Assembly: GCF_004799665.1 (NCBI RefSeq)
Contig: NZ_CP031310.1
Coordinates: 1,790,887-1,854,886 of the forward strand
DNA from: Halapricum salinum
GTDB lineage: Archaea; Halobacteriota; Halobacteria; Halobacteriales; Haloarculaceae
Reading direction: 5' to 3'
DNA length: 64,000 bases
Each line of letters opens with the position of its first letter. The stretch's first letter is position 1. The notes beneath the pieces are model-generated. The model was not told the origin of the DNA and did no database searches. It saw only the letters and a list, made by a program, of their open reading frames with translations. Below, piece by piece: positions 35,296-55,597 of this stretch. The translations under genes were made by a program, and so were the position numbers.

Positions 35296-37380
35296 ATGCC
35301 AGCAACACATACCGCCGACGGCGAGCGCACTGACTTCACGGGTGCCTTCATCACGCGCCGCACAATCACCCTCGACGGCACGAGCGTCCACCGCCTGACG
35401 TTCGACACCGACGACGACACCACGCAGACGCTGCTGATCCCAGCGTCGGCCGACTGCACCGTCTACGGCCTCCAGACCGGACACCGCTACGAAATCAGTG
35501 ATACGCGTTACTGCGTGCCGACGACCGCCGCTGATCCGAGTGACGAACGTTGCCCGGACTGCGACGCCCAACTACGGCACGCCGTCGCCATCGACGCCGA
35601 ACCCGAGTCACTCCGCCGCGCTACCCAGGAGTTCGGGATCGACGACCCGTTCTTCGTCGCAACCGACCAGACACGCATCGTCCGCGCGGATCGCGAGAAA
35701 GCCGACGACTGGCAGCCGATGGACCAGGGCGATCGCGCCCGGCACACGGCGCCGGACTACGTCTGTGACAACTGCGGAGAGGTCTTCGACGAACGCGAAC
35801 TGCACCTCCCCGCCGAAGAGGATCGTGAGGTGATGATGGACGCGATGCACGCCGAAGCAGCGGCACCGGCGGAAACGATGGGGTTGGCGACTGGTGGCGC
35901 GAAGGACGCGACGAACTTCCGGGAGAACATCGAACAGGGATACACGCCCCAGCCTGGTGCGATCAGCACGGAGGGGTTGTTCTACGATTACTACTTCGAG
36001 ACTGGCGGGCGTCGCGCGGAGACAGACGCTATGTTCGCGCCGCGATACGCTGCCGGCGTCTCGAAACATCCTGTCACCGGCGACACCGAGCACGTCCTCA
36101 GCGTCGGGTTAGACTCGACACTTTCTCCGGAGGACTTCGAGCGGCCACGCCTCGATCTGGTCGCGGTGCTTGACGTTTCGGGGTCGATGGACTCGCCGTT
36201 CGACGAGTACTACTACGACGAACACGGCCGCCGTCGCGAGGTCGAGACGACGAGCGACCGCAAGATCGACGCCGCCACCCGCGCGCTGTGCGCACTCACT
36301 GAGCAGTTGGACGACGAGGATCGGCTCGGCGTCGTCCTGTACAACAACCGCGCGCACATCGCCAAGCCGCTACGCGATGTCGGTTCGACGGACATGCACG
36401 CGATCCGCCAGCACATCCGCGAGGTGTCGGCCGGCGGCGGCACGAACATGGAAGACGGATTCGAGGCAGCGTGGGACCTGCTTCAGGACGCGCCGGCCGA
36501 ACCCGAGACTGAGCGCCGCGTCGTGTTCATGACGGATATGATGCCGAACATGGGCGGCACCGGCCAGAGCCAGCTCCGTGAGCTGTTCGCCGACGCCGCG
36601 GCTGACGGCATCCACACGACGTTCCTCGGGATGGGGCTCGACGAAAACGCCGACCTCGCCGACGCCGTCTCGGACGTCCGCGGCGCGAACCACTACTTCG
36701 TCCACTCCGTCGAAGAGTTCGAGCAACGCCTCGGCGAAGAGTTCGCCTACATGGTGTCGCCGCTGGTCTACGACCTCCAGCTCGAACTCGACGCTAACGG
36801 CTGTGAGATCGCTGCGGTCCACGGCGCCCCCGGCAACGACGCGACTGACCAACTCATGCACGTGACGACGCTCTTCCCTTCACCGAAGGAAGACGGCGAA
36901 ACCCGCGGCGGCATCATCCTCGTCGAACTGGACGTGACCGACGCAGACCGCGCCGTCGAACTCGTGGCGTCCTGGGTCGAACGCGACGGCAGCAATCACT
37001 CCGAGCGCGTCGCCGTCGAACTCCCACGGGAGGTACCGTCGTTCGATCACAGCGGCGTCCGGAAGGCCACCGCGCTCGCCCGGTACGCAGACACGCTCCG
37101 GGAGTGGGCCGAGGACGTCCATTCCCGTTCCGAAGGGACAGGCGTCGATGACTGGATCGACCCCAGCAGGCCGGACGATCAGGAACGCGAGTCAGTGCCG
37201 CTGACGGTCCCCGAGTCCTACGCGCGCCGGTTCAAGACGCTGCGAGCGTATCTCGTCGCCGAAGCCGACGATGTCGGTGACGATTCCCTGCTTCAGGAGG
37301 CTCGCTTGCTGGAGACGCTGTGTGCTGAGGCCGGTATCGAGATCCAGCCGACGGTCGATCCGGGAGGAAATGGGACCTGA
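35296..37380 (+). CDS. VWA (von Willebrand A) domain protein with N-terminal zinc ribbons
   Basis: A 694-aa cytoplasmic protein. Residues about 85-175 hold two CxxC pairs (RCPDCDAQL and VCDNCGEVFD). The VWA domain begins near 285 with the MIDAS motif VLDVSGSM (D293, S295, S297) and continues with GGGTNMEDGFEAA (Thr) and FMTDMMPNMGG (Asp), so the metal site is complete. A beta-sandwich-like and a helical tail follow. VWA proteins act as Mg-dependent adaptors, often with AAA ATPases or in TerY-type phosphatase clusters. ATG 35296 is chosen because the residues after it look like a folded start; GTG 35218 is also in frame. It is followed with 1-nt overlap by the HAD-HEAT gene. Confidence 0.85.
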   Translation: MPATHTADGERTDFTGAFITRRTITLDGTSVHRLTFDTDDDTTQTLLIPASADCTVYGLQTGHRYEISDTRYCVPTTAADPSDERCPDCDAQLRHAVAIDAEPESLRRATQEFGIDDPFFVATDQTRIVRADREKADDWQPMDQGDRARHTAPDYVCDNCGEVFDERELHLPAEEDREVMMDAMHAEAAAPAETMGLATGGAKDATNFRENIEQGYTPQPGAISTEGLFYDYYFETGGRRAETDAMFAPRYAAGVSKHPVTGDTEHVLSVGLDSTLSPEDFERPRLDLVAVLDVSGSMDSPFDEYYYDEHGRRREVETTSDRKIDAATRALCALTEQLDDEDRLGVVLYNNRAHIAKPLRDVGSTDMHAIRQHIREVSAGGGTNMEDGFEAAWDLLQDAPAEPETERRVVFMTDMMPNMGGTGQSQLRELFADAAADGIHTTFLGMGLDENADLADAVSDVRGANHYFVHSVEEFEQRLGEEFAYMVSPLVYDLQLELDANGCEIAAVHGAPGNDATDQLMHVTTLFPSPKEDGETRGGIILVELDVTDADRAVELVASWVERDGSNHSERVAVELPREVPSFDHSGVRKATALARYADTLREWAEDVHSRSEGTGVDDWIDPSRPDDQERESVPLTVPESYARRFKTLRAYLVAEADDVGDDSLLQEARLLETLCAEAGIEIQPTVDPGGNGT

Positions 37381-39152
37381 TGCTGATCTTCGCGTTCGAT
37401 CGCGACTGGACCGTGGACGTCAACCCACACCCGCATCATGAGGCTGTTCCCCTGGAGTGGGTGCGGCATCTGGCCCACGAAACCGACCACGCCGTCTACG
37501 CAATCGGGAACCAGGAGCTGACTGAGGAGGCGGCGATCCCGGGCGTGGTGGATATCGTCGGTCGCCACCCCGACCACTGGGACGAGTGGCTCGGCAGCAA
37601 GCAGCCTGACGGCTACTACGAGCAGTTCCCCCTCCGACGTGAACGACTGTCGTTGATCGCTGATCTGCACCCGGACGCTGACGGATATATCGTCATCGAC
37701 GACCTCGACTTGAGCGACGTCGAAGGCTGGCAGCACTACCACGCCTGGGATTTCGTGCCAGCTGTCCGGCAGGGTGACATCGACCCGGATCTTCCCTGGG
37801 CTGGCGAGCCCGTCGCAGATGGTGGGATGCCGACGATTGCAGGCATCATTCCCTCCGGCGCGGATCACCTGCGGCGGTTTCTCCGCGAACAGGACCGAAC
37901 CCCAGCATTCGAGATTACCTCTCTCGATGACGGTGTCGAACGCACGTGGCTGTGCTGGGATGTTGAACCACTGCTGGGCTCCTACGGGCGGGCTGTCGCC
38001 CCACAGCTCAGGTGTACGCCGCTCGACCCAGCTGCGGAGTCGTTCAGTGTCGCCGCAGACTCCGTCGAGAAGCTCAGTGTCGTCCGACCCTCGCCAGACC
38101 AGTTCCTCGCGCCCGCAGAGACACAAGCTGAAGAGGCGATAGCACTGGCGCGACTCGCGGCTGTCAACCCGGACGCGGTCCCTGTCTCGGCGATACTCAC
38201 GCTGCTGGACCAACCCGACGAGGATGCAGCGCGCGACCGAGACGCCCTGACGGCGTTACAGCGCGTCGCAGCGACCAGGCCGGACGAATGCCTCCCAGCC
38301 ATCCCGATCCTGAAGTCGATCCTGACGAGTGACTCAGAACACGGAACAGCCGCCGCACTGGCGACGCTGGGCCACATCGGCGAGGAGGACGCCGCCGATA
38401 TCGCGCCGCTGGCGGACAGTATCGCGCCGTATCTCGACGCCGAAGACGAGACAATCCGACGCGAAGCCGCGCACTGCATCGCTGCCATCGCCGCCGAGTA
38501 CCCGGATGATGTCGCCGAGACACAAATGGAACTAGTCGAAATCGTCCGTGACGGAGGTGCCGCCCTGGGTCACGCCGTCGATGCGCTGGTCCAGATCAGT
38601 GAGGAGTTCCCGCTCGCGCTGGAGCCTGCCGTCCTGCCGCTCGGTGAGGTCCTTCGCGACTCATCAGTGGCTACCAGGGTTCGCATACAGGCGACGCTCG
38701 CGTTCCGGAATCTGGCGACTGAAAAACTGACGCTGGCAGTAGATGTAATGGATGATGTCGCGGCCGTGTTCGATGCCGACGACTACCGTCTCCGGAACAA
38801 CGCGCTTGCGCTTACATTTGATTTCGCAGAGTACCAAGCCGACCTCGTCAAACCGTATGTTGACGACATTGCCGCGTTCCTCACCGAAGACGACGCCTAC
38901 ACGCGGACCAACGCCAGCGGGACACTCGCTCGCGTCGCCGGTGACTTCCCGGACGCAGTCGCCCATCTCACGCCGACGGTCATCGACTGTCTCTCCGACG
39001 ACGATCATCGCGTCCGGGAAAACGCCTGCTGGGCGCTCGGCTATCTTCAGGCCTCCGAAGCAGAAGCGGCACTCAAGGACCGCCTGGACGACCCTGCCGA
39101 CGACGTTCGAGACAAGGCTGCCTGGGCACTTTCGGAGATCCACCCACTATGA
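37380..39152 (+). CDS. HAD-like domain plus HEAT-repeat protein
   Basis: A 590-aa protein starting in the stop of the VWA gene (tgATG). The first residues, FAFDRDWTVD, match HAD motif I (D7-x-D9-x-T11), and IVIDDLDLSD near residue 105 could supply a further acidic motif, so the N-terminal 170 residues may be a phosphatase-like fold. From about residue 240 to the end there are HEAT repeats, seen as TAAALATLGHIGEEDAADIA, IRREAAHCIAAIAAEYPDDV, RVRENACWALGYLQASEAEA and DVRDKAAWALSEIHPL, a protein-protein scaffold. It probably forms a complex with the VWA protein. The HAD call is moderate; the HEAT call is firm. Confidence 0.78.
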   Translation: MLIFAFDRDWTVDVNPHPHHEAVPLEWVRHLAHETDHAVYAIGNQELTEEAAIPGVVDIVGRHPDHWDEWLGSKQPDGYYEQFPLRRERLSLIADLHPDADGYIVIDDLDLSDVEGWQHYHAWDFVPAVRQGDIDPDLPWAGEPVADGGMPTIAGIIPSGADHLRRFLREQDRTPAFEITSLDDGVERTWLCWDVEPLLGSYGRAVAPQLRCTPLDPAAESFSVAADSVEKLSVVRPSPDQFLAPAETQAEEAIALARLAAVNPDAVPVSAILTLLDQPDEDAARDRDALTALQRVAATRPDECLPAIPILKSILTSDSEHGTAAALATLGHIGEEDAADIAPLADSIAPYLDAEDETIRREAAHCIAAIAAEYPDDVAETQMELVEIVRDGGAALGHAVDALVQISEEFPLALEPAVLPLGEVLRDSSVATRVRIQATLAFRNLATEKLTLAVDVMDDVAAVFDADDYRLRNNALALTFDFAEYQADLVKPYVDDIAAFLTEDDAYTRTNASGTLARVAGDFPDAVAHLTPTVIDCLSDDDHRVRENACWALGYLQASEAEAALKDRLDDPADDVRDKAAWALSEIHPL

Positions 39153-39234
39153 TCACAGGTACCGCTACTCCCGCGACCGCTGTATCGAAACTGACCGAGA
39201 CAGTTCCCAGACCGACGACTCAGGAGCAATACCA

Positions 39235-40167
39235 ATGATACAACCCGCGAAGGCGGAAGGCTGTCTGCTGGGGCTCGCCTGTGGTGACGCGCTTGGCCGA
39301 CCGGTAGAATTCAAATCCGCCGCCACGGTCGAACAACGTCACGGCACCGTAGACGCGATGCTCGGTTACGGGAGCCACGGCCAACCAGCGGGCACGATCA
39401 CCGACGACACCGAGCTCGCCCTCTGTATCGCGCGCAGTCTCGTCGCCTGCGACGGGTTTGACGGCGCAGATGTCGCCGAACGATTCGTCGGCTGGTACGA
39501 AACCGACCCGTTCGACATCGGATTGATGACCACCGACGCACTCGCCCGTCTCCAGCGCGGAGACCCGTGGGACCAGGCCGGACAGGCCGTGTGGGAGTCC
39601 CGTCGCGAGGGAAGTAACGCCGGCAACGGCAGCGTGATGCGGTGTGCACCGTACGCGCTGGCGGTCGCTGACGACCTCCAGCAACTGGGACATGTGAGCG
39701 AACAGTCCTCGGCGATCACGCACGCCGACCCGCGATGCAAACGCGGCTGTGCCGTCTTGAATCTCACCATCGCAGCCCTCCTACGCGACGAGGACGACCC
39801 CCTGCAACAGGCGCTCGAGGCGACTTACCCCGAACAGTCGAATGCATCGGAAATCGACGATGCCGTCGAAGGACTGCCTGGCAGCGTATCAGCGAGCGAG
39901 GTCAACAACGGTGGCTACGTCGTTGATGCGCTCCAAGCCGGCCTCTACTACGCACTCAGCGCTGGCAATGCCGAAGACGCGATCGTCCGAGCCGTCAACG
40001 CTGGCGGCGACGCCGATACTGTCGGAGCGATCACGGGCGCGGTGGCCGGCGCGCGCTTTGGCGCAGCGTCGCTTCCCGATGCCTGGCTGGAGGAAATCGA
40101 CGAGACAGCTGAACTGCGCACCCTCGCAGGACAGTTACTCGAAGTAGGGCAGTCCGGTGAGTCCTGA
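39235..40167 (+). CDS. ADP-ribosylglycohydrolase (DraG/ARH family)
   Basis: A 310-aa all-helical ARH-fold hydrolase. It opens with AKAEGCLLGLACGDALGRPV. The first metal motif is TITDDTELALCIARSL, middle motifs are NAGNGSVMRCAPYALAV and SAITHADPRCKRGC, and the second metal motif is VNAGGDADTVGAITGAVAGA. All Mg-binding acidic residues are in place. Such enzymes remove ADP-ribose from Arg residues or other acceptors, including nucleic acids, or hydrolyse ADP-ribose derivatives. ATG 39235 is chosen because it begins the family's N-terminal helix; the frame is open upstream but with shifted composition. It lies 82 nt after the HEAT gene and 2 nt before the phosphoesterase gene. Confidence 0.9.
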   Translation: MIQPAKAEGCLLGLACGDALGRPVEFKSAATVEQRHGTVDAMLGYGSHGQPAGTITDDTELALCIARSLVACDGFDGADVAERFVGWYETDPFDIGLMTTDALARLQRGDPWDQAGQAVWESRREGSNAGNGSVMRCAPYALAVADDLQQLGHVSEQSSAITHADPRCKRGCAVLNLTIAALLRDEDDPLQQALEATYPEQSNASEIDDAVEGLPGSVSASEVNNGGYVVDALQAGLYYALSAGNAEDAIVRAVNAGGDADTVGAITGAVAGARFGAASLPDAWLEEIDETAELRTLAGQLLEVGQSGES

Positions 40168-40169
40168 CC

Positions 40170-40826
40170 ATGAGCGAACAGCCTGCTCGAATCGGCCTCG
40201 TTTCCGACATCCACGGCAACGCCGTCGCATTCGAGGCGGTTCTCGAAGACATGCCGGCCGTGGACGCAGTGGTGTGTGCCGGCGATGTTGTCGGCTATGG
40301 GCCGTCACCGGGACGCTGTATCGATCTCATCCGTGAGCGGTCGATTCCGACCGTTGAGGGGAACCACGATCGTGCGGTCGTCCAGGACCAACCGTACGAA
40401 TCCGGTGACCAGTACGCCAGCCTCACGCTCTCGGAAGACAAGCTCTCGTGGCTTGCGGGCCTCCCGCGTGAGCGATTGCTATTCGATGACCGGCTGAAAG
40501 TCGTCCACGACCACCCCGAGGAGAAGAACCGCTACACGATCCCTGCGGTATTCGATCCAGTCCTCCTCGATGATGAAGCTGTGCTTGTCTTGGGACACAC
40601 CCACGTCCAGCACGCGGAAGAGTTCGGCGATGGAATCGTCGTCAACCCCGGCAGCGTCGGTCAACCACGAGACAAAGACCCAGACGCCGCCTACGCAGTC
40701 GTCGATCTCGACGAGATGACCGTCGATTTGCGCCGCGTGCCATACGACATCGACGAGGTCCAGCGACGGATCGGGGACACGAGCATCGATACGTACAACG
40801 CCAAGCGACTAACGGATGGCCGGTAA
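40170..40826 (+). CDS. Calcineurin-like metallophosphoesterase
   Basis: A 218-aa two-metal phosphoesterase. All five family motifs are visible: LVSDIHGNAVAFEAVL, VCAGDVVGYGPSPGRC, VEGNHDRAV, VLGHTHVQHAEE and VVNPGSVGQPRD. The GYGP and NPGSVGQPRD sequences place it near the small cytosolic phosphodiesterases of unknown substrate. It starts 2 nt after the glycohydrolase stop, so it is translationally coupled. In this operon it could act on a cyclic or linear nucleotide or on an ADP-ribose product; that is inference. Confidence 0.9.
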   Translation: MSEQPARIGLVSDIHGNAVAFEAVLEDMPAVDAVVCAGDVVGYGPSPGRCIDLIRERSIPTVEGNHDRAVVQDQPYESGDQYASLTLSEDKLSWLAGLPRERLLFDDRLKVVHDHPEEKNRYTIPAVFDPVLLDDEAVLVLGHTHVQHAEEFGDGIVVNPGSVGQPRDKDPDAAYAVVDLDEMTVDLRRVPYDIDEVQRRIGDTSIDTYNAKRLTDGR

Positions 40827-40855
40827 CCCGGCCGCGGCACAACGAACACTCACCA

Positions 40856-41977
40856 ATGTACGAACTCACGTACGAATTCGATGGCAGCGGGGGGAACATC
40901 CAGCATCAAACCAGACAGCGAGTCGAAACAGACGCCACCACGGCCGACATCGACGTTGAGATCGTCTCGACAGGCCTGTCGCTCGGTGACGACACGATCG
41001 ACGGTCTCGCGATCGTCGCCGTTCCAGAGGCTGTCGATCCTGACACAGCGTTCGACTCGGCGACCAAGGTGCGTCGGACTGACGAGCTGATCGACCCAGC
41101 CATGGCCCAGGAACTTGTAGAGCGAACTGCACTCACAGATGCAGCCATCGCCACCCGGTTCGAGCTGTCAAAAGCACCCCTCGTCGTGGGGGCAGCCACG
41201 CATGGTCCTGGTCAGATCGATGCCGTGTTCCGCACCGATGCCGGCGACGTAATTACCAACGACGACCTCGCCTCCCGGTATCAGCATGCTTCTCAGGACG
41301 AGCATTTCCATCCGCTCGGCGTCCTCGTCGAAGGCGATCTGTATCGTCCCGTCACTACGAGACTGCCCGATGGTGATCGCAGTGCCGTTGGCGAGCCGAT
41401 CCGACTGGCGACGCATCGTGGATCCTCCTCGACGCCGTGGCAGTTCGGAATCGCCCGTTATGACGGACAGTTGCTCCTGACGCAGGCTCGAGCTGGGCCA
41501 TCAAAATTCGACCCGGTGCTCAAGCGGTTCCCGATCAAGACGCAGCCACTCGGTACTGAGCCGCTTGTGTTCAGTCACACTGTCAGTCGGCGTGTCTGGT
41601 CGGAAGACCCGGCGAATATACACATCGAATCCCAGCGCAGCGAAGGGCTGCGGACGCAGTTGCTCTACAGTGATGCAGATGGCTGGCATCTCATCCAGCC
41701 TGCGGGGCTTGACGATACTTCCGATGGCGATGGTGAGTCGTTCGAACCAACCCAGCTCGACGGTGTGTCGGTTCGGTCAGCGCTGCTGCGAGCAGAGACG
41801 GACGGTGAAACAAAAGCCACAGTCGAACACGAATACCGAATCACCCCTGAGGCTCTGGATGGATGCACCCGCCTGTACGCGCTGTCCTACCACGAGGCCA
41901 ACGAGGAGTCCTTCGACACCCTCCAGTGGGACATTGCCGAGGCGACTGCCTACGAAATCGTCGAAAAGGAGTCCTGA
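40856..41977 (+). CDS. Unknown protein of the VWA/CARF operon, 373 aa
   Basis: A 373-aa soluble protein that I cannot assign. The N-terminus is a beta-rich unit (MYELTYEFDGSGGNIQHQTR), followed by an acidic domain with repeated Val/Ile strands. The central part has PLVVGAATHGPGQIDAVFRT, and the C-terminal part has LRTQLLYSDADGWHLIQPAG and EHEYRITPEALDGCTRLYAL. There are no catalytic motifs, Cys clusters or membrane segments. It begins 29 nt after the phosphoesterase and ends 84 nt before the CARF-like gene. Its presence between them suggests a structural or sensing role specific to this system. Confidence 0.7.
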   Translation: MYELTYEFDGSGGNIQHQTRQRVETDATTADIDVEIVSTGLSLGDDTIDGLAIVAVPEAVDPDTAFDSATKVRRTDELIDPAMAQELVERTALTDAAIATRFELSKAPLVVGAATHGPGQIDAVFRTDAGDVITNDDLASRYQHASQDEHFHPLGVLVEGDLYRPVTTRLPDGDRSAVGEPIRLATHRGSSSTPWQFGIARYDGQLLLTQARAGPSKFDPVLKRFPIKTQPLGTEPLVFSHTVSRRVWSEDPANIHIESQRSEGLRTQLLYSDADGWHLIQPAGLDDTSDGDGESFEPTQLDGVSVRSALLRAETDGETKATVEHEYRITPEALDGCTRLYALSYHEANEESFDTLQWDIAEATAYEIVEKES

Positions 41978-42027
41978 CATGAGGACTGAACCGCAACGAC
42001 TCGGTGTTCGTCCTGAGCGCTGGCGTA

Positions 42028-42034
42028 CTTTTAT
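42028..42034 (+). promoter_or_regulatory. Internal TATA box before the CARF-PIN pair
   Basis: gtacttttatactg is centred about 30 nt before ATG 42062 and 21 nt before ATG 42053. This predicts a start of transcription near 42058, so the CARF-PIN pair can be made independently of the upstream operon. Confidence 0.5.
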
Positions 42035-42061
42035 ACTGATTGGGTCTCTGTCATGAGTGGT

Positions 42062-42550
42062 ATGGAAACCGTCTGGATTACGAGCGGGAGTACGCGGGTC
42101 GAAGCGATGATTAACCCCCTAGCAGCGGCCTGCATCGGAGACGGAATCGACGACCCGTTTATCCCTGATACCGTGTACTTCCTCGACAATCCAGGACTCG
42201 GTGATACACTCTCCGAAGCCAAGACTCTCGCCCGCGAGATCTTGGAAGGGCACGGCGTCGAGTCGCCGACGATTCACACGAGTACGCTTGAGGCTGAAAC
42301 TGATTTCGAAGCGATCGCCGCGTACTTCCAGGCAGCCGTCGAAGACGCCCGCGCCGCAGATGCCGACGTTGCGATCGACGTCACGCCCGGCCGCAAATTC
42401 ATGTCCGTATTTGCTTTTGAGGCCGGAACCACCTACGATGTCGATCACCTCTTCTACTTCTATCTGCACTCGAACGCCTACTTCGACCAGATCTACCAGA
42501 CAATCCCACGCACCGCTGGCGAACTCTACGACTTCACGGAGGTGATCTGA
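42062..42550 (+). CDS. CARF-like ligand-sensing domain protein
   Basis: A stand-alone Rossmann-type domain of about 162 aa. The features of a CARF (CRISPR-associated Rossmann fold) domain are seen in order: the first strand and ligand loop TVWITSGSTRVEAMINPLAA; the second strand DTVYFLDNP; and late in the chain the strand-loop-helix ADVAIDVTPGRKFMSVFAFE, matching the D-x-T-x-G-x-K-x-M signature. CARF domains bind cyclic oligoadenylates or similar nucleotides made by type III CRISPR Cas10 and gate an attached effector. Here the effector is the next gene, whose ATG directly follows the stop. ATG 42062 fits promoter spacing; 42053 is also in frame. No cas gene is present in the window. Confidence 0.65.
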   Translation: METVWITSGSTRVEAMINPLAAACIGDGIDDPFIPDTVYFLDNPGLGDTLSEAKTLAREILEGHGVESPTIHTSTLEAETDFEAIAAYFQAAVEDARAADADVAIDVTPGRKFMSVFAFEAGTTYDVDHLFYFYLHSNAYFDQIYQTIPRTAGELYDFTEVI

Positions 42551-43603
42551 ATGCAACTTCCTCGCGATCACATCGTCGTGTTGCTGAACGCGCTCTACGA
42601 CATGGATGAGCGCACGATCACGGTGCAGCATCCTGCTGCCGAAATCGGCGAACTGCTGCGGATCAACCTCGGTGACCCACAAGCGAGCACCGTCACCGTC
42701 AAGACGGGAGCCATGACTTACGATTCGATCATCAACGACATTCAACGCGAATACGGTGACGAAGTCTACAACGAACTCCCGAATGAGGCGGCCTACGTGA
42801 AAGCTCTGGTCGCCAGCGGGCTCGCCGATATCCGGAATCGGGATGAAATCGACACAACGATCAAGCGCTACGGCTACCAGGATCTCCACGAAGGTCATCC
42901 GCCGCGATACGCCGGGTTCGACACCAACCTCCTTCCTTGGCGAATGCACGACGTCCTCGGAATTGACCCTGAATTGTACGGCGAGGACGGTGCGCCGAAA
43001 CCCGTTAACGGCTACACCCTCGCCGAAGGCGTTGATGAGGAACTTAAACACAGCCATCGGTACGGCCACACAGCCATGCCTGCCGCTGAGCTAGCCGATG
43101 TCTTCGGCACTGAATTCGAGCGGCTGGACGGCCAGCCGAACCAGGATAGCCGCGAGATGCGGCTCGGCCTCCGCGAGTACCGCCGCCTCAGAGAAACACG
43201 GCCCCACGACGTTGTCGCCAGCGACACCGGCGACGCCGGCATCATCGCCGGCTGCAAAGAATTCTACGCTGACGAACCGACCGGTGTCATCCTGTTCTCG
43301 AATGACTACGGTTTCGTCGATCGCGCCCGCGAACAGAAAGTCCCCGCCGTTCACGTCGAATTCGACCTCGACGTCCCCAAAACCATCACCGCCACCTGGG
43401 ACGAAATCGCACTCCTCCTCTACGAGCTTGCCGTGCTGTTCGGCGTCATCGTGCTCCCGAAAGCAACCCTGTATGGTGCCTGGGACGGCAAAGACGAACA
43501 GGACTGGCAAGCCGAAACAATCGACGTCCAATGCCGGAGTGACGACCTGGAAGACATCCTTCGCAGAGACCGAGCGATCGCCGAGACATACACGCACTTG
43601 TGA
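42551..43603 (+). CDS. PIN-domain ribonuclease, partner of the CARF-like protein
   Basis: A 350-aa protein. The N-terminal 110 residues are helical and may include an HTH (TITVQHPAAEIGELLRINLG). From 119 onward there is a PIN fold: RYAGFDTNLLPWRM (D124), AMPAAELADVFGTEF (E180), DVVASDTGDAGIIAGCKEFY (D225 or D228) and VILFSNDYGFVDRAREQKVP (D252). All four acidic positions of an active PIN nuclease can be assigned. It begins at the base following the CARF-like gene's stop, so the pair is made together. Inferred role: an RNase switched by the CARF protein's ligand. The C-terminal 80 residues are a helical extension of unknown role. Confidence 0.72.
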   Translation: MQLPRDHIVVLLNALYDMDERTITVQHPAAEIGELLRINLGDPQASTVTVKTGAMTYDSIINDIQREYGDEVYNELPNEAAYVKALVASGLADIRNRDEIDTTIKRYGYQDLHEGHPPRYAGFDTNLLPWRMHDVLGIDPELYGEDGAPKPVNGYTLAEGVDEELKHSHRYGHTAMPAAELADVFGTEFERLDGQPNQDSREMRLGLREYRRLRETRPHDVVASDTGDAGIIAGCKEFYADEPTGVILFSNDYGFVDRAREQKVPAVHVEFDLDVPKTITATWDEIALLLYELAVLFGVIVLPKATLYGAWDGKDEQDWQAETIDVQCRSDDLEDILRRDRAIAETYTHL

Positions 43604-43731
43604 TCACTGATGCAATACCCAGCACGACCCAGTACTGTGACCGGCCGTAGGTGGAACAGAGCGAAGCGAACCCGAGCTACTCGCGGGTTCGTGGCGTCCG
43701 GAGATAGAATTATCACCCAACCGGAGGATGT

Positions 43732-46329
43732 GTGACCGTGCCAATTCAGCGAGCAAAACCGGTTGACGCTCTGTACGAGGAAATCAGCGACTACGAGTTA
43801 GTTCTCGTGCCAGATGCGCCGCTCGCGAGCGCGCTCAACCGTCATCTCGATCGTCCACATCTCGGTGATTTCGCGACAACGCCGCGGCGGGCCGCCGCCG
43901 GGCGCCGCGAGCAGGTCGAAGAACGAACGGTCTTTCTCGAACTGCTGCACGAAACTGACCTGACGTGGAAGCAAGCGGCGTACCTCGGCGAGGAAATCAT
44001 TCACGCTTGGGAATACACCGGCCGGCCGGACGGGATTCTCGACTATGATCGGTTCGACACCCCTGCTGTCAGGAACGCTGTCGAACACGTCGCAGGACTG
44101 GAGACGACATCACGCCGGCTCACTGACTACACCGTTGATGAATCAACGGAGCTAGCCGTTGTCGGGTATCCGCAGTTCACTGCGCTTGAGCGCTCGATCC
44201 TTCCGGACTCGTTCGACCGTATTGACCGCTTTGCCGACGGGACGTTTGACCACCCGCCGTTCAGGGTGTTCGACTCGGCGACAGACATTGTCGCGGCGCT
44301 CCGAGACACGATTACAGCGGAGACGGCCGACCAGGTAGCGGTTGTTCTCGATGCCAGCAGCGAATTCTCGACGCTCGTCGAGTCAGCGTTTGACAGCGCC
44401 GACATCCCGTTTTACGGCGGCCCCGGATTCTTAGACAATCCCGATCACCGCGCCTTCTTGCGACTCCTCCGAGCCGCGTACCGGGGACGGGATGTCCGTG
44501 TTTCGGTGATCCGGCCGATTCTCGATCATCTCGGTCTTGACGTTGATCCAGACCACGATCAGAAACGCCTCCATACGCTCGACGATCCGGCTCTCACGCC
44601 GATCCGTGATTGGTGTACAGCAGTTGCACACGGTGAGCACACGTTCAACTCGGCACTGACTGAGTACGAAGCGCTGCTGGACACGGAGTTCGAAGCGTTC
44701 CGAGCCGAACTGGAGACGCTCGATTTAGCCGAGCAAACCATCACCGAGGACCGCGTTAATGACCTCGAGTTTTACCTCCAGTCATACGAGGTCCCGATCA
44801 CCCGCGAGAACGAAGGGGTGTTGCTGGCGGATGCGAATGCCGCGACACACGTCGATCGGCCGCTGGTTTTCTACCTCGGGTTAGACGATGACTGGACTCG
44901 GACACCGTTGCGCCGGCCGTGGGTCGATGCCGACATCGAGTTCGATCGTCATCTCCGGAAGTTTCAGTTACTCCTCCAAAATGGGGCGCAACAGGAGTAT
45001 CTCGTGCGGGACACCGTCGGCGGCGATTTGGTAACTCCGTGCTTCTATTTCGCGGAGCTGTTCGAGGAGTCGTTCTCACGGTTCGATGACGCCGACAGCG
45101 AGCGCTACACCGTGGCTCGCGACACAGCGACGGAGTCGTTCACTGATGACGCAGTGTCCGTTGAGCCAGACACGCTGAGTGCGCTCAGCCAATCTAGTCT
45201 CAGCACCTATGTCAACTCCCCGCGGGACTACTTTTTCGACCAGCTCGTGGACTCGCCCGACCGGGATTACTTCCGGCGCGGCAATCTCTTCCATGACTTC
45301 GCAGAGTTCTACGTCCATCACCCAGATATCCTGTCCTCGTCGTCAACTGAGGAAATCCTCGACGTGATGCTCGAAGAGATGTCACCGTTCATCCGAGACG
45401 TCGATGAGGACGTCTACCGGACACGGTTCCGCGGCGGCCTTGAAAACCTCATCGCGTTTCTCGATGAGCACGCACCGGACGCTGGCACGCTGTCGCTCGA
45501 CGCGACACCCTCGGGCAACAACACGTTCTCTGCGTACTTTGACCGCCCGATCGGGTCAGACGTCACCGAACGCTGGTTCAAAAACGAAGACATCGGCATC
45601 AAGGGCTTGATCGATCTCGTGCAGTCCTCGACCCGGCTGGTCGATTACAAGTCCGGCTCGAAGAAATCCGCCTCGAAAATCGTCACCAACTCGTCGCTGT
45701 CGGAGATCTCAGACACACCGAACTTCCAGGCGCTGCTCTATCTCACCCATCAACGATCAGTCACCCCGGACGAACAACTTGAGTTCGTGTTCGTCCACTT
45801 CCTCGAGAACATCGACGACGTCGTCCGCGGCACCGCTGACCCCGATGAAACCCTCACCAAGGTCACGTACTACCCAACCACCTACGAAGAGTTCGTTCAG
45901 CGCGAGGCGATGTTCGAACAGCTCCGCGAGGACGGCTCGAACAAGTGCCAAAAGACCCTGTCACAGGTCGAGTACGCAGATTACCGCGCTGTCTTCGAGG
46001 CGGAACCAATCCCGAAGACACGCGACAACGACGAATTGATCGAGTCCGACTTCGGGGACACGTTCATCGAGCGGATGCAAGCCGTCGTCGGCGAGTACAA
46101 ATACGTCAAGACAGGGTGCAAGCAAGCGATGCGCGATCTTGTCGGCGTTCGGAAGGAGAACTACTTCGCGGACGATCTCGACGCGTTTGAGGCGTTCATC
46201 GACGACCGCCTGACCGAGTTGAACGAGCGGCGCGCCGGCGCTGAGCGCTTCCCGATTGCAGACCTCGTAGACGAACCGAATTACAGGCGCGTCAATCACC
46301 GCGACCTGCTGCTGGAGGACACCCAATGA
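43732..46329 (+). CDS. AddB/RecB-like PD-(D/E)XK nuclease
   Basis: An 865-aa protein with an inactive-helicase-like N-terminal half and a C-terminal RecB-family nuclease. The nuclease core is GIKGLIDLVQSSTRLVDYKS (residues about 624-643), preceded by SQSSLSTYVNSPRDYFFDQL and the helix GNLFHDFAEFYVHHPD that usually supplies the first His. No Walker A is seen, as in AddB proteins that keep only a degenerate helicase fold. The Fe-S Cys set of bacterial AddB is not evident. GTG 43732 follows the Shine-Dalgarno-like ggagg at 43723-43727; GTG 43738 is possible. The stop overlaps the helicase gene (ATGA). Confidence 0.8.
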   Translation: MTVPIQRAKPVDALYEEISDYELVLVPDAPLASALNRHLDRPHLGDFATTPRRAAAGRREQVEERTVFLELLHETDLTWKQAAYLGEEIIHAWEYTGRPDGILDYDRFDTPAVRNAVEHVAGLETTSRRLTDYTVDESTELAVVGYPQFTALERSILPDSFDRIDRFADGTFDHPPFRVFDSATDIVAALRDTITAETADQVAVVLDASSEFSTLVESAFDSADIPFYGGPGFLDNPDHRAFLRLLRAAYRGRDVRVSVIRPILDHLGLDVDPDHDQKRLHTLDDPALTPIRDWCTAVAHGEHTFNSALTEYEALLDTEFEAFRAELETLDLAEQTITEDRVNDLEFYLQSYEVPITRENEGVLLADANAATHVDRPLVFYLGLDDDWTRTPLRRPWVDADIEFDRHLRKFQLLLQNGAQQEYLVRDTVGGDLVTPCFYFAELFEESFSRFDDADSERYTVARDTATESFTDDAVSVEPDTLSALSQSSLSTYVNSPRDYFFDQLVDSPDRDYFRRGNLFHDFAEFYVHHPDILSSSSTEEILDVMLEEMSPFIRDVDEDVYRTRFRGGLENLIAFLDEHAPDAGTLSLDATPSGNNTFSAYFDRPIGSDVTERWFKNEDIGIKGLIDLVQSSTRLVDYKSGSKKSASKIVTNSSLSEISDTPNFQALLYLTHQRSVTPDEQLEFVFVHFLENIDDVVRGTADPDETLTKVTYYPTTYEEFVQREAMFEQLREDGSNKCQKTLSQVEYADYRAVFEAEPIPKTRDNDELIESDFGDTFIERMQAVVGEYKYVKTGCKQAMRDLVGVRKENYFADDLDAFEAFIDDRLTELNERRAGAERFPIADLVDEPNYRRVNHRDLLLEDTQ

Positions 46330-49181
46330 GCGACCCCGACACCGAGTCAGAACCCACGCCGAACAACAAGCAGCGAGACCTCATCAACAGTGTAGACGGG
46401 ACCTATCTCGTTGACGCAGGCGCCGGCACCGGCAAAACCTTCGCCGTCACCCGCCGGTACGCGAATATCCTTGAGACGACCGACGCTACCCCAGAAGATA
46501 TCCTGCTGATCACGTTCACGCGGAACGCAGCCACGGAGATGAAAGACCGGATCGTCAGTCACTGCGACTACAGCACAGCTGAACTCGCAGACGCACCGAT
46601 CCAAACCTTCCACAGCCTCTGTAACGATATCCTGCAAGACTACGGCTTCGACGCACCGACACTGCTCGGCATCGACGATCGCATCCCGAGCAGCACCCGC
46701 ATCATCGAAGACAGTATCGTCGAAGAAGCACTGTTCCGAGAATTCTTCGAGCAATTCAGCGACACCCACCCCGAGTACACTGACTACGTCCGGATCATCT
46801 CTGATCCGACTGAACTCCTTGATCTCATCAATCAACTCGCGTCGAAAGGCGTGTTCCCAACCAGCGACGGCTGGTATCGGAACGGCGCCACCGATCTTGA
46901 CGGGGACTTCGAGGCGTTCAAATCACAGTTCGACACCGTCAACGAACCCAGAAACGACGGCAACAAGCAGTCGCGTCTACGGTCGAAACTCAACGGCTAC
47001 GGGGACAACAAGATCTACCTCCCGGACGCACCGCCCAAACACGAAATCCGGGGTGACGGCAAACAGGTCCCTGCGGACCTCGCACGCCGGGTGTTCGACG
47101 CGGACCGTGAGCAACTCCGCGCGTTCGTCCACGACGTCTACTTCGAGTACTTGGAGTTCGCACTCGCCCGCAACTACCTGAACTTCGGATTCCTGCAACT
47201 GTTCGCGTTCGTCCTGCTCTGCGAGGACCACGAACTCCGGAAAGAGCTGGAGTATGACTACGTCATGGTAGACGAGTTCCAGGACTCAAGCGAGATCCAA
47301 TTCAAGCTGACACTGCTGCTGGCCGGCACAAACAATCTCTGCGTCGTCGGCGACTGGAAACAGAGTATCTACTCCTTCCAGTACGCCGCGGTCGAGAACA
47401 TCACGGACTTCCGCAATCGCTTCCAGCAGTTCGCAGACGAACTGAACGACGACACCACACGAGTCTCCTACGACACCGCCCCCGTCGAAACTATCGAGCT
47501 GAAGAAGAACTACCGCTCCACACAGACAATCCTTGATTTCTCCGAGCACGCGCTCCTCACGCCAGCCGCAAACCACGACACGGTCGATACTGCTGCGGTC
47601 CGCGACGATATCGTCTCCCTTGATTCGACAGCCACCCACGACAACACTCAGATCGAAGCCATCCAGCACGAGGACGAACACGAAACGATTCTACACACAA
47701 TCACCGACATCGTCGGTAACGACGCCTACCAAGTCACGGACGACGACGGCAACCTCCGCCTCCCGGAGTACCGCGATATCGCCGTATTAACACGGACACG
47801 TGACTTCGGGCGCGAACTCCAATCAGTCGCTGACGAACACGGGCTTCCGATGGCCTACGACGGCGGGATCGAACTGTTCCGTACCGATCCCGCGAAACTC
47901 CTGCTGGCCTGGCTCCGCATCTTGGACGCCGACAGCGACCGCGGCTGGGCGCCGGTCCTGGAACGCGCCGGGTACACCTTGGATGAAGTAGATCATATGC
48001 TGGACACCGAGACGTATCCAGAGGACATGCTCGCGTTCCGTGATACACTGGCCGCGATGGAGACACTCGCCGGCGTGATGCGGACGGTGTTCGAGCGGTA
48101 CGGCTACACCGGCCCGCGGGCTGACGTTCTGCTGCACACGGTTGAGTCGATCCGGGACACGACGACACTCACGCATGGCGATCTCATCCAGTTCATCGAG
48201 CGCGGGATCGAGCACGGCAGCACCCATGAAGTGAACACGAGCGCCGGCGAAAACTCCGTGACCGTGCAGACGATCCACGCCACGAAAGGCCTGGAACACC
48301 CGATCGTGATCCTCGCAAACATGAACAGCGGCCGCTTCCCGCCGAGCAGTACCGGCAGCCAGACGATCATGTACGATGACACTGTCGGGCTCCGCCAACG
48401 CAAGCGATTCGCGACCGCGCACGGCCAACCCTACATCTACGACGACTGGAAAACCGACGTGCTGCGTCGCTGCCTCAATCGAGACTACGATGAAGAGCGC
48501 CGCCTCCTGTATGTCGCAATCACGCGCGCCGAAAGCCACGTCCTATTCACCGCCGGCGACGACCCCAACACCTTCCTCGAAGAACTCCCGCTCGACATCA
48601 CCGACGGCGACGCCACCATTCCGGAGATCACCATTGACACCGATGAGCGTCCGGTGTTTTCGGTGTCGCTACCCGAGGAATCGGGGCCAACGAAGTACTC
48701 GCCGCACTCGTTGATGGACACGGCTGTCTACGAAGACGTGACAGAGGGCCGCGGCACAGAATTCGGGACGCGTGTCCACGATTTCGCCGAAGAGTACGCA
48801 CTCGGCGCCGACATCGACCCACAGAACGACGACGAACACAATGTCAAGCAACTCCTCGACGACCTCTCCGGTACCTTCCGGGTGGAGGAAGACGTCTACC
48901 TCCCACTCAACACCGACGACGGCCGCGTCACACTTTCCGGCGTCATCGACCTGCTACACATCACACCCGACACCATCGATATCATCGACTACAAAACCGA
49001 CCGCGGTCGCCACGCCGAAAGCGAATACCGCAAACAACTCAGCGTCTACTACCACGCACTCACCGCTCTCTACCCAGACCGCTCTATCGACCCGCAACTG
49101 TTCTACACAGCCACCGGCGAAACCATCCACATCGACCCCCTTGACCAGACCACTCTTGCAGACTTGACCATCCAACACTGA
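46326..49181 (+). CDS. AddA-like UvrD/Rep helicase with C-terminal nuclease
   Basis: A 951-aa superfamily-1A helicase. Motifs: VDAGAGTGKTFAVTRR (Walker A, residues 30-45), LLITFTRNAATEMKDRI (Ia), PIQTFHSLC, YDYVMVDEFQDSS (Walker B), VVGDWKQSIYSFQYA (III), IELKKNYRSTQTILDFSEH (IV), VTVQTIHATKGLEHPIVILA (V) and RRLLYVAITRAESHVLF (VI). The C-terminal nuclease has GVIDLLH and TIDIIDYKTDRGRH with a preceding FGTRVHDFAEEYA. It therefore combines helicase and nuclease as AddA does. It overlaps the AddB-like gene by 4 nt and probably forms a heterodimer with it that processes DNA ends. Confidence 0.9.
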   Translation: MSDPDTESEPTPNNKQRDLINSVDGTYLVDAGAGTGKTFAVTRRYANILETTDATPEDILLITFTRNAATEMKDRIVSHCDYSTAELADAPIQTFHSLCNDILQDYGFDAPTLLGIDDRIPSSTRIIEDSIVEEALFREFFEQFSDTHPEYTDYVRIISDPTELLDLINQLASKGVFPTSDGWYRNGATDLDGDFEAFKSQFDTVNEPRNDGNKQSRLRSKLNGYGDNKIYLPDAPPKHEIRGDGKQVPADLARRVFDADREQLRAFVHDVYFEYLEFALARNYLNFGFLQLFAFVLLCEDHELRKELEYDYVMVDEFQDSSEIQFKLTLLLAGTNNLCVVGDWKQSIYSFQYAAVENITDFRNRFQQFADELNDDTTRVSYDTAPVETIELKKNYRSTQTILDFSEHALLTPAANHDTVDTAAVRDDIVSLDSTATHDNTQIEAIQHEDEHETILHTITDIVGNDAYQVTDDDGNLRLPEYRDIAVLTRTRDFGRELQSVADEHGLPMAYDGGIELFRTDPAKLLLAWLRILDADSDRGWAPVLERAGYTLDEVDHMLDTETYPEDMLAFRDTLAAMETLAGVMRTVFERYGYTGPRADVLLHTVESIRDTTTLTHGDLIQFIERGIEHGSTHEVNTSAGENSVTVQTIHATKGLEHPIVILANMNSGRFPPSSTGSQTIMYDDTVGLRQRKRFATAHGQPYIYDDWKTDVLRRCLNRDYDEERRLLYVAITRAESHVLFTAGDDPNTFLEELPLDITDGDATIPEITIDTDERPVFSVSLPEESGPTKYSPHSLMDTAVYEDVTEGRGTEFGTRVHDFAEEYALGADIDPQNDDEHNVKQLLDDLSGTFRVEEDVYLPLNTDDGRVTLSGVIDLLHITPDTIDIIDYKTDRGRHAESEYRKQLSVYYHALTALYPDRSIDPQLFYTATGETIHIDPLDQTTLADLTIQH

Positions 49182-49320
49182 ATCCTCTTTCAGATCTCAT
49201 TCGTCGAAGACGTCTTGTCACCAAACAGCCAGCCCAGTAGCCACTGAGTTGTAGAGAAATATGGGGGACGGGCCCTCCAGTAACTATTTCATTATTCAGG
49301 TTAAACAACACTTCCTACCG

Positions 49321-50523
49321 ATGTCTTCGCAAACCCAGCCGACGGTATCCGTTCAGGAAGACCGAGTGGTGATCGAAAACGCCGAAATCGAAGACTCTGA
49401 AGTCGTTGACCACTTCACAGACATCGATCCAGACGAACGCGGAGAAGCGCTAAAACGGGCACTCCGCGTTGGAGTGGTGACGCTTGAGCTGGCCGAAACA
49501 TCAGGTGAAGAAGAATACGTCGAACGACGATTCGAAGAACTCCGACGGGATCTCGAAACAGAGATTGACCGGATCGAGGATCAAGTCGAAGAGAAATTCG
49601 GCGACAACGGCCACGTCCCCCAGACGTTAGAAACTCATTTCGGGGATGACGGAAAACTCCGCGAACACATCGAAGACGCATTCGGCGAAGACGGTGTCTT
49701 CGTCGAACGGTTAGACAAAGAACTCGGTGAAGACGGTGAACGGATTCGGAAAGCACTCGACCCAGACAACGAAGGCAGCCCGACATACCGGCTTGAACAG
49801 CGACTCAAAGACGAAATCGAGTCGATCAAAGAGCAAGTCATCGAAGAGGAGAAAGAATCCGAGATGCGGAGTCAGACCTATTTCAAAGGCGGCGACTTCG
49901 AGGACTCCTTGCACCAGATTCTCGAAGAGATCGTCCGACAGACGCCGAACAACGTCGAATTCACCGGTGATACACCCGGTGAGATCGGACGGGATGTCGG
50001 CGACTTCGTCATCACACTTGCAGATACCGGACAGAACATCGTCGTTGAGGCAAAAACCGAGAGCTACTCACTCCAGGACATCAAAGACGAGATGGAGGAA
50101 GCCATGCAAAACCGCGATGCGGCATACGGTCTCTTTGTCACCGACACACTCGCGAATCTTCCCCGGACGAAAACAGGCTGGTTCCACGAATTCCCTGAGC
50201 AAAACACCGTCGTCGTCGCAATGAGCGAAACCGACGACCAAGACCTTGAACCAGGATACCTCCGCATCGCGTTCAACTGGGCACGCATGCGATCGGTACA
50301 GGCCTACGCCGAGTTCGACAGCGACTTTGACCCAGAGGAGCTACGCTCTGAGCTCTCCGAAATCGAAGAAGACATCAGCCAATTTAAAACTATTCGCGGC
50401 CAGTGCACCGAAATCCGGAAATCACGCGAACGCATCGAAGAAACACTCGACAACATCGAGCAAAGCATCAAAAACCGACTCGCCGAAATCGAAGCTCAAC
50501 TCACAAAAGCTGACAATCAATAA
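49321..50523 (+). CDS. Coiled-coil protein with PD-(D/E)XK nuclease core
   Basis: A 400-aa acidic protein. Residues 60-190 are largely coiled coil and include an unusual repeat of F/L-GDDG/EDG units (FGDNGHVPQTLETHFGDDG, FGEDGVFVERLDKELGEDGE). Residues about 195-320 form a restriction-like fold, GDFEDSLHQILEEIVRQTPN, VGDFVITLADTGQNIVVEAK with the D and E-x-K residues. A second coiled coil (ISQFKTIRGQCTEIRKSRER) ends the protein. ATG 49321 is preferred over the open frame from 49261. Likely a DNA-cutting or DNA-binding effector held in an oligomer by the coils. It is 140 nt after the helicase gene and may be a separate unit. Confidence 0.72.
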   Translation: MSSQTQPTVSVQEDRVVIENAEIEDSEVVDHFTDIDPDERGEALKRALRVGVVTLELAETSGEEEYVERRFEELRRDLETEIDRIEDQVEEKFGDNGHVPQTLETHFGDDGKLREHIEDAFGEDGVFVERLDKELGEDGERIRKALDPDNEGSPTYRLEQRLKDEIESIKEQVIEEEKESEMRSQTYFKGGDFEDSLHQILEEIVRQTPNNVEFTGDTPGEIGRDVGDFVITLADTGQNIVVEAKTESYSLQDIKDEMEEAMQNRDAAYGLFVTDTLANLPRTKTGWFHEFPEQNTVVVAMSETDDQDLEPGYLRIAFNWARMRSVQAYAEFDSDFDPEELRSELSEIEEDISQFKTIRGQCTEIRKSRERIEETLDNIEQSIKNRLAEIEAQLTKADNQ

Positions 50524-52081: not shown

Positions 52082-53446
52082 TCAGATCGCCCCACTCGTT
52101 GCGAGCACTCCGATCACAAAGAGAACTGCCGTGATGATACTCCCCACTAACAGTGGCTTGTTCTCCATCGCTTTCCTGTGGATCGGCATAGCTTCGTACT
52201 GTTCACGGAAGGTGTCGCGGTTGTCCTCGTCATAGAAGTATTTCGTCTTCAGCGCGAATCGCTCCGTGACGGCACACCCAGTGCAGACCGGTTCACCTTC
52301 AAGGCGTTCGGCCTTGATGTGATCGGTGCAACTGATGCTGCCGCAGTTCGCACAGTACGTGTAGGTCTCATCGCCACCGCTTGTGTCACAGTGCACGCAG
52401 CGGTGGATACCGTCTTCAGTGGTGACGCGTGACGGGCCGGCCGCGAAATACTCGTAAGGGTAGGTGTACTGCTGGAGATCAGTTGTCTGCCAGACTTCAG
52501 GCAGATACACGGGTTCGATCGATTGCACCGAGATGTCTGAAAGGTTCGGTTCGCAGGTCTTGGTGTAGGTGACGTTGTTGTCGCCGGTGTACTGGACTGT
52601 CGTCGTGTGATGCTCCTGGAGACGATCGACCGCCCAGTCTTTGTACTCTGTCTGGGTCTGCCCGAAGCGTTTCTCCTCGAGTTCATCGAATACATCGCCG
52701 AACCGATCGGTGTCCAGTTCGACCGCTGCGTGCCTGTTCTCCGAGACGAGCCGCGCCACAGTGTCGTCAGCGACCGACGGCTGGCCCCGGTCTGCATGCA
52801 CGACGAACCGGGTGCGCTCGTTAATCCGATGGATCACGCCGACACTCGTCTCGAACACCGCGTCCGTGTCAGCCGTGATTTCGACGACCGGCCGAAACAC
52901 CGCCCGGCTGTACGGCTCGGGCAACTCAGCAGCCTCAATATTTTCGACGTCACGGAAGGCCGCTTCGACCGGAGCGTTGACCGACGCCGCCGGGTCGTAC
53001 GGGCGTAGCGTCATGTCGCACAGAATCTCGATTCGGCCGTTATACAGATCGAGCCCGATCTCGTCGGCGATCTCACGGAGATCCTCGCCATCGATCAACT
53101 CAACCGGATACGGGTCGTCGTTCTTCCGCAATCGGTCGGCGTATTCTTCGGCAGGCCCCGTGAACCGCCCCGTCGTCGCCACCATTCCGCGTTTCGGCCC
53201 GTCGAACTCGAATGTCGCGACCGCCGAATGCAGCTTCTGCACGACCGGGCGGCCGACCGTGTCGGTGTGTTTGCACTCAACGACCACGCCACGCCGCGTC
53301 CCGTCCACAACCTCCTCCATCAGAATGTCCCGCCCCTCGTCGGCCGTTCGCTCGGCCTGCCGGACGTTCTCGTACCCGAGATTCCGAAAGACGTCCTCCA
53401 TCACGTCCTCGAACTCGAACCCCGAGAGATCGTCCAGAACAGCCAT
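52082..53446 (-). CDS. Mrr-type restriction endonuclease, zinc-finger containing and tail-anchored
   Basis: A 454-aa protein. The N-terminal Mrr_cat domain is complete: GFEFEDVMEDVFRNLGYENV, TADEGRDILMEE (D40), RGVVVECKHTD (E57-C-K59), and VVQKLHSAVATFEFDGPKRG. A middle domain of 200 residues is unassigned. Near 350-395 there are zinc knuckles (HRCVHCDTSG, YCANCGSISCTDH, VCTGCAV). The C-terminus is one TM helix (LLVGSIITAVLFVIGVLATS). Mrr enzymes cut modified or foreign DNA; a membrane anchor would place it at the DNA entry site. ATG 53444-53446 opens directly on the domain. Confidence 0.85.
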   Translation of the reverse strand: MAVLDDLSGFEFEDVMEDVFRNLGYENVRQAERTADEGRDILMEEVVDGTRRGVVVECKHTDTVGRPVVQKLHSAVATFEFDGPKRGMVATTGRFTGPAEEYADRLRKNDDPYPVELIDGEDLREIADEIGLDLYNGRIEILCDMTLRPYDPAASVNAPVEAAFRDVENIEAAELPEPYSRAVFRPVVEITADTDAVFETSVGVIHRINERTRFVVHADRGQPSVADDTVARLVSENRHAAVELDTDRFGDVFDELEEKRFGQTQTEYKDWAVDRLQEHHTTTVQYTGDNNVTYTKTCEPNLSDISVQSIEPVYLPEVWQTTDLQQYTYPYEYFAAGPSRVTTEDGIHRCVHCDTSGGDETYTYCANCGSISCTDHIKAERLEGEPVCTGCAVTERFALKTKYFYDEDNRDTFREQYEAMPIHRKAMENKPLLVGSIITAVLFVIGVLATSGAI

Positions 53447-55409: not shown

Positions 55410-55597
55410 ACAGCTTTTGCAAGAAAGTACCCGCTGACTTTTCTTCCATAGATCGATTATATCACTCACCACTGCTACGAAGTCCGTGCCGAATATAGAG
55501 GGTGTACGCAGCAGTATGTCTCCTGAAGGGTGAACACTGTTCAATCATCCCACTTGTATGCGGTAATTTCATCATCTGAAGCTGATTGTTGTTCTGC

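Follow-up and report, generated by a model that had tools for sequence, protein, structure and literature searches.

An accessory AddAB-type helicase-nuclease pair of haloarchaea and its putative coupling to a CARF-PIN module

Within the 64-kb stretch of Halapricum salinum DNA analysed here (hereafter the window), two adjacent genes at 43732-49181 on the forward strand encode a helicase-nuclease pair, which we label F1 together with its relatives. The first gene (43732-46329, GTG start) encodes an AddB-like subunit of 865 aa, in which a motor-dead SF1 helicase fold (residues ~1-460) is followed by a PD-(D/E)XK nuclease domain (~485-835) without an Fe-S triad, and its nuclease motifs (H521, GxxD628, D638-Y-K640 and Q666xxxY670) lie at 45292-45741. 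The second gene (46326-49181, ATG start) encodes an AddA-like subunit of 951 aa, consisting of an active SF1A helicase and a C-terminal PD-(D/E)XK nuclease. Its Walker A motif GAGTGKT (residues 32-38, at 46419-46439) is near-invariant among relatives, its Walker B or motif II sequence DEFQD (residues 316-320) is found at 47271-47285, and its nuclease motifs (GxxD875, D888-YKT and Q904xxxY908) at 48939-49049. The two reading frames overlap by 4 bp, and their coordinates are exactly those given in a preliminary description of this DNA.

Upstream of the pair, on the same strand, lies a cassette that begins with a 694-aa vWA-domain protein (35296-37380; Pfam VWA) and continues with a 590-aa HEAT-repeat protein (37380-39152; Pfam HEAT_2/HEAT_EZ), an ADP-ribosylglycohydrolase (39235-40167; Pfam, 8.9e-77), a calcineurin-like metallophosphoesterase of the YfcE type (40170-40826; Pfam, 5.1e-25) and a 373-aa protein without a Pfam match (40856-41977). 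These are followed, directly upstream of F1, by a CARF-domain protein of 162-165 aa (42053-42550; PADLOC CARF_m1, 2.7e-57) and a PIN-domain nuclease of 350 aa (42551-43603; PADLOC CARF_PIN, 3.4e-25), which form a conserved gene pair. The small gaps and the shared strand suggest that 35296-49181 constitutes a putative nine-gene operon with the vWA gene as its first member. Divergently oriented from the vWA gene, at 33462-35033 on the reverse strand, is an AAA_14/DUF4143 ATPase (Pfam; PADLOC candidate PDC-S01), which also precedes vWA in L205, L256, L260, L262 and L265. The whole series from vWA to CARF-PIN is shared by the window, Salinibaculum KK48 (L129) and a Halapricum plasmid (L205), with the metallophosphoesterase and the 373-aa protein at the same position in the latter two; in L205, AddB is annotated as two reading frames, followed by an IS66 transposase. 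Parts of the cassette are more widespread: the vWA gene recurs beside CARF-PIN, the HEAT gene adjoins vWA in L129, L205, L254-L256, L260 and L265, and the ADP-ribosylglycohydrolase stands beside CARF-PIN in L129, L205 and L254-L257.

The preliminary description had proposed that both F1 subunits retain a PD-(D/E)XK core, that only the second carries helicase motifs, and that the genes follow the addB-addA order of bacteria, and all three proposals are borne out. Pfam PDDEXK_1 matches both proteins (6.9e-12 for the AddB-like and 7.6e-9 for the AddA-like subunit); the motifs DYKSG and DYKTD are at residues 638-642 and 888-892, respectively. In the family alignments, H521, D628, D638, K640, Q666 and Y670 are identical in 61 of 61 AddB-like proteins, while the AddA-like proteins share D875, D888, K890, Q904 and Y908 throughout (58 of 58), and likewise H818 (59 of 59), so that a lack of nuclease-motif conservation in relatives, which had been named as an argument against the assignment, is not observed. 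The UvrD N- and C-terminal helicase domains of Pfam are confined to the AddA-like protein, in agreement with the Walker A pattern (GxGK[ST]), which occurs in 59 of 60 AddA-like and in none of 61 AddB-like proteins; DEFQD is invariant in 20 of 20 AddA-like helicases and present in at least 97% of 60. Across 88 non-redundant F1 loci, AddA lies directly 3' of AddB with overlapping or nearly overlapping ends in 85, two of the three exceptions being at or near contig ends. Judged by these conserved residues, the pair is a combination of one active SF1A motor, two conserved PD-(D/E)XK sites and a motor-dead helicase-like partner.

Neither the AddB-like sequence nor its profile retrieved a relevant relative from the PDB sequences, and we therefore turned to structure prediction and profile comparison. 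The predicted AddA-like model (pLDDT 80) finds B. subtilis AddA as its best Foldseek match over the whole length (4cej_A, E 1.5e-38), followed by RecB, while VIA-align ranks the helicase-only PcrA/UvrD chains at the top (Z 25) and gives AddA a Z of 19.8 over 799 residues. For the AddB-like model (pLDDT 82), Foldseek puts AdnA first (E 9.2e-13), closely followed by B. subtilis AddB (E 2e-12) and with RecC behind, and VIA ties AdnA and AddB (Z 17.0 and 16.7). The rmsd of ~24 Å indicates that the domains match and their relative placement does not, and the predicted domain arrangement is uncertain given the low pTM of 0.49. None of the PADLOC and NCBIfam matches names the F1 system, and the AddA-like protein scores 171.5 bits against the NCBIfam AddA model, whose cut-off is 707.65 bits.

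Haloarchaea carry two further AddAB-like types. F2, present in 38 of the 195 genomes of our Halobacteriales set, combines an AddB of ~1020-1140 aa with an AddA of ~1210-1320 aa (L210, L211, L222, L228); it is closest to the addA_Gpos/addB_Gpos models (376 bits to addA_Gpos), near bacterial AddAB, and is a much better candidate than F1 for a bacterial-type AddAB. F3, found in 57 of the 195 genomes, has its AddB split into genes of ~690 and ~305 aa, followed by a helicase-nuclease of ~1143 aa (L209, L223). Between the F1 and F2 AddB profiles, hhalign finds a match that spans 459 columns with a probability of 97.3% (E 2.4e-11). In one F1 locus (L253, G148), a 1028-aa helicase-like protein encoded two genes upstream of CARF-PIN weakly resembles the F3 and F2 AddA proteins, and is possibly a fourth type. 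Compact pairs (AddB-like 855-881 aa, AddA-like 1014-1105 aa) also occur on bacterial plasmids of Thermus, Variovorax, Bradyrhizobium and Rhizobium (L212, L214, L219, L213), one with an upstream WYL gene and one near the cas3 of a type I-U CRISPR system.

The same gene order and fold as in bacterial AddAB could be taken to mean that F1 is a bacterial operon, recently transferred and still working as a Chi-regulated, recombinase-loading recombination enzyme. The preliminary description had raised transfer from bacteria, and had proposed a helicase phylogeny and a search for the Fe-S cysteines of the AddB-like protein as checks; the Chi-recognition residues, a third check named there, are too divergent for a reliable alignment. 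The triad C-x2-C-x5-C, sought both by regular expression and by column inspection, is missing in all 61 F1 AddB proteins, and is present in F2 (4 of 4), F3 (2 of 2) and the Thermus AddB-like protein. A cysteine at the first triad position only is found in 17 of the 61, and may be a relic of a lost cluster. In the helicase-core tree, for which the references were E. coli RecB, UvrD and Rep, Listeria PcrA, the bacterial plasmid AddAB pairs and B. subtilis AddA (the latter as pieces taken from a PDB alignment), F1 forms its own clade (100/100), which has a long stem and is placed between AddA/RecB on one side and UvrD/PcrA on the other. It thus falls outside the UvrD/PcrA/Rep clade, and the grouping with ordinary haloarchaeal UvrD that had been named as a counter-argument is not seen, in a tree where canonical haloarchaeal UvrD is thinly sampled and the UvrD-like protein of the genome itself (L225) is too divergent to serve as an anchor. 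The position of F3 near UvrD/PcrA and the joining of Thermus with Variovorax both rest on long branches. Grafting F1 onto B. subtilis AddA plus F2 is narrowly unrejected (AU p = 0.059, with several of the reference branches long), which leaves some room for a bacterial origin. The separate helicase lineage and the loss of the triad nevertheless leave a recent transfer from bacterial AddAB unsupported; in the searches made, relatives of the AddB-like protein are moreover confined to archaea, and the patchy spread of F1 argues against its being the main recombination enzyme of the cell. Taken together, we regard this explanation as very unlikely.

F1 is found in 75 of the 195 genomes and in 43 of the 66 genera of the order, with a full-length AddB in ~69 of the 75. 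Outside the order but within the same phylum, two genomes (G196 and G221) gave full-length matches, and a single peptide pattern, which could miss distant bacterial relatives, retrieved from a collection of 84,980 species haloarchaea together with one MAG each of Methanonatronarchaeales and Aenigmatarchaeota. Relatives are present on 34 plasmid records, all of those listed being haloarchaeal; no F1 was found in the phage collection or, by the patterns scanned, among IMG/VR viral contigs. DNA-end resection in archaea is usually ascribed to HerA-NurA and Mre11-Rad50, and NurA occurs in 58 of 59 relatives, with two copies in the Halapricum salinum genome. The patchy spread, the plasmid records and the near-universal NurA imply that F1 is a mobile accessory that supplements the universal NurA pathway, rather than a core resection enzyme. 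The same genome also encodes a Dna2-like protein with a PDDEXK_1 match (L001), which looks like an ordinary Cas4-domain helicase. The G+C content across 12000-64000 of the window drops from ~0.66 to 0.51-0.60 (32-40 kb excepted), which fits an accessory island, and the 64-kb window contains no tRNA genes.

Downstream of the pair, three further genes stand out. Just after AddA, a gene at 49261-50523 (+) encodes a coiled-coil protein with a weak Mrr-like domain, and its cluster recurs near F1 in 4 of the 88 loci (the window, L088, L124 and L129). At 52082-53446 (-) there is an Mrr_cat restriction-endonuclease-like protein whose C-terminal stretch is cysteine-rich and hydrophobic, and at 55586-57745 (+) an OLD-family ATPase/TOPRIM protein (PADLOC Old, 9.3e-70), which is GajA-like and a likely defence gene in its own right. 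Since this last gene lies 6.4 kb downstream, and PADLOC GajB models match the F1 helicase core (best 3.6e-42), one could speculate that F1 is a defence helicase of the Gabija kind, in which GajB has gained a nuclease. UvrD-fold similarity is generic, however, and the GajB chains in the PDB are only ~500 aa long; the OLD-family cluster is found in just 2 of the 88 F1 loci, and the actual partner of the helicase is the AddB-like protein. We therefore hold this possibility to be extremely improbable.

In the gene pair directly upstream of F1, the ligand motif of the CARF protein, TPGRKFxS (residues 108-115), is conserved in 22 relatives, with K112 in 95%, and the acidic residues D124, E164, D228 and D252 of the PIN nuclease are invariant over 23 loci. 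CARF-PIN is present in 22 of the 195 genomes. Of 21 intact loci, 16 have an AddAB-like pair no more than 20 kb away (15 of them within 10 kb), the partner being F1 in four, F2 in eight and F3 in four; in three of the loci with F2, L254-L256, the vWA, HEAT and ADP-ribosylglycohydrolase genes stand ahead of CARF-PIN and F2. Under uniform placement, 0.44 such co-locations would be expected (P 4e-24), a null that overstates the significance, since accessory genes tend to lie in clusters. A better yardstick is the mutual co-location of F1, F2 and F3, which was seen in none of the 36 genome comparisons with two of them present; against an assumed rate of 3/36, the CARF-PIN co-location has a P of 7e-14, where, as for the first value, AddA extents were approximated by fixed lengths and related loci were treated as independent. 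At least seven changes of partner family can be counted along the PIN tree, for example between the sisters L263 (with F3) and L264 (with F2; support 100/99), and in several loci the same-strand gap between CARF-PIN and AddAB is only ~70-150 bp. Such recurrent switching of CARF-PIN among three different AddAB-like complexes implies a functional coupling.

A simpler view would be that F1 is a stand-alone accessory enzyme for end resection or degradation, in repair or in a restriction-like role, and that the upstream genes are unrelated defence genes of the same island. F1 is self-contained, patchy and carried on plasmids, and the recurrence of any other gene is limited to at most 10 of the 88 loci; CARF-PIN itself is directly upstream in only ~4 of them, so that the pair does not need it. 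Of the defence-type operon and the defence-specific use put forward in the preliminary description, the former is real in the window but an unusual context for F1, while the latter accords with the accessory role and the defence-type CARF-PIN setting, unlike the bacterial transfer with which it had been paired. Several loci have CARF-PIN and AddAB on opposite strands or kilobases apart, and some of the co-location could thus reflect common insertion hot spots. Five of the 21 CARF-PIN loci have no AddAB-like pair within 20 kb, and some of these adjoin AbiE toxin-antitoxin genes and integrases, which makes islands a real factor. Yet shared islands would be expected to bring the accessory machines together as well, and these were never found co-located with one another, whereas CARF-PIN is found with them in most of its loci; the partner swaps and the short same-strand gaps also speak against the stand-alone view, which we consider credible but unlikely. 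Among the AddAB-free loci, L258, L259 and L261 form a clade of CARF-PIN, in which AbiEi/AbiEii adjoin CARF-PIN in two of the three; an integrase cluster recurs as well, along with a DUF429 gene.

A known source of cyclic oligoadenylate for the CARF protein was not found. The Cas10 palm model PF22335 had no match in the 195 genomes while being positive in five controls, and the Csm1/Cmr2 models (TIGR02577, TIGR02578) gave nothing above cut-off in 20 CARF-PIN genomes, where the Csm1 model produced weak matches of 19-24 bits, restricted to its N-terminal part. A very divergent synthase may still be encoded in these genomes; otherwise, as no Cas10 cyclic-oligoadenylate synthase was found, the CARF ligand must come from elsewhere. 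A literature search for a link between CARF, PIN and AddAB, with the 2020 CARF classification outside its scope, returned no earlier report.

Because of the partner swaps, and thus on the basis of gene association, we prefer a two-arm or guard arrangement over island coincidence: with confidence slightly better than even, we propose that F1 is an archaeal AddAB-type heterodimer acting on DNA, and that CARF-PIN is a signal-gated RNase that serves as its second arm or guard. The AddA-like and AddB-like proteins would form a complex on double-strand DNA ends, unwind in the 3'-5' direction and cut both strands, whereby linear foreign DNA would be degraded or breaks resected. The subsequent steps are the least certain. 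A nucleotide signal or a degradation product, arising once the helicase-nuclease engages invading DNA or once a virus disables it, might turn on the PIN nuclease through the CARF sensor, and the active nuclease might then halt translation or growth as a back-up, following an effector or a guard logic. The vWA, HEAT, ADP-ribosylglycohydrolase and phosphoesterase genes would be optional regulators. The locus of F1 and CARF-PIN as a whole suggests a putative antiviral or DNA-damage module. More tentatively, and with rather less than an even chance in our estimate, CARF-PIN could be a Cas10-independent immune module, either monitoring AddAB-type machines in three non-orthologous versions or being triggered by them, which would in effect make it an archaeal guard or two-arm system that links the processing of DNA ends to the cutting of RNA. 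Three or more machines of the AddAB type are in circulation among haloarchaea as patchily distributed additions, and one of these is a separate lineage that lacks the Fe-S cluster motif. The association of CARF-PIN with whichever machine is available, in genomes in which no Cas10 was found, suggests CARF signalling through a ligand from another source. The coupling of CARF-PIN to AddAB is thereby a concrete and testable prediction.

The bacterial AddAB of B. subtilis (3u44/4cej) shares with F1 the gene order, an AddA with an active SF1 helicase and a nuclease, and an AddB with a motor-dead fold and a nuclease, and is among the best whole-length fold matches. F1 differs from it in its smaller subunits, in the AddB-like protein without the triad, in a separate helicase lineage that scores far below the NCBIfam AddA cut-off, and in being accessory rather than core. 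Mycobacterial AdnAB likewise has two nuclease-bearing subunits, and the AddB-like model fits AdnA as well as AddB; AdnA carries a motor domain of its own, whereas F1 has motor motifs in one subunit only. RecBCD resembles F1 in its RecB-type helicase-nuclease subunit, but the F1 pair includes no RecD gene, and the AddB-like protein keeps the nuclease residues that RecC does not. The CARF and PIN genes of the window match the CARF_m1 CARF-PIN of PADLOC-DB, from which they differ in being two separate genes, linked to AddAB rather than to a type III CRISPR locus with its Cas10. In its logic, the proposed arrangement, in whose cassette no retron was noticed, resembles that of retron Ec48, which guards RecBCD: in both, a toxic arm would be coupled to an enzyme of the RecBCD/AddAB type, a coupling to which gene association points in the present case.
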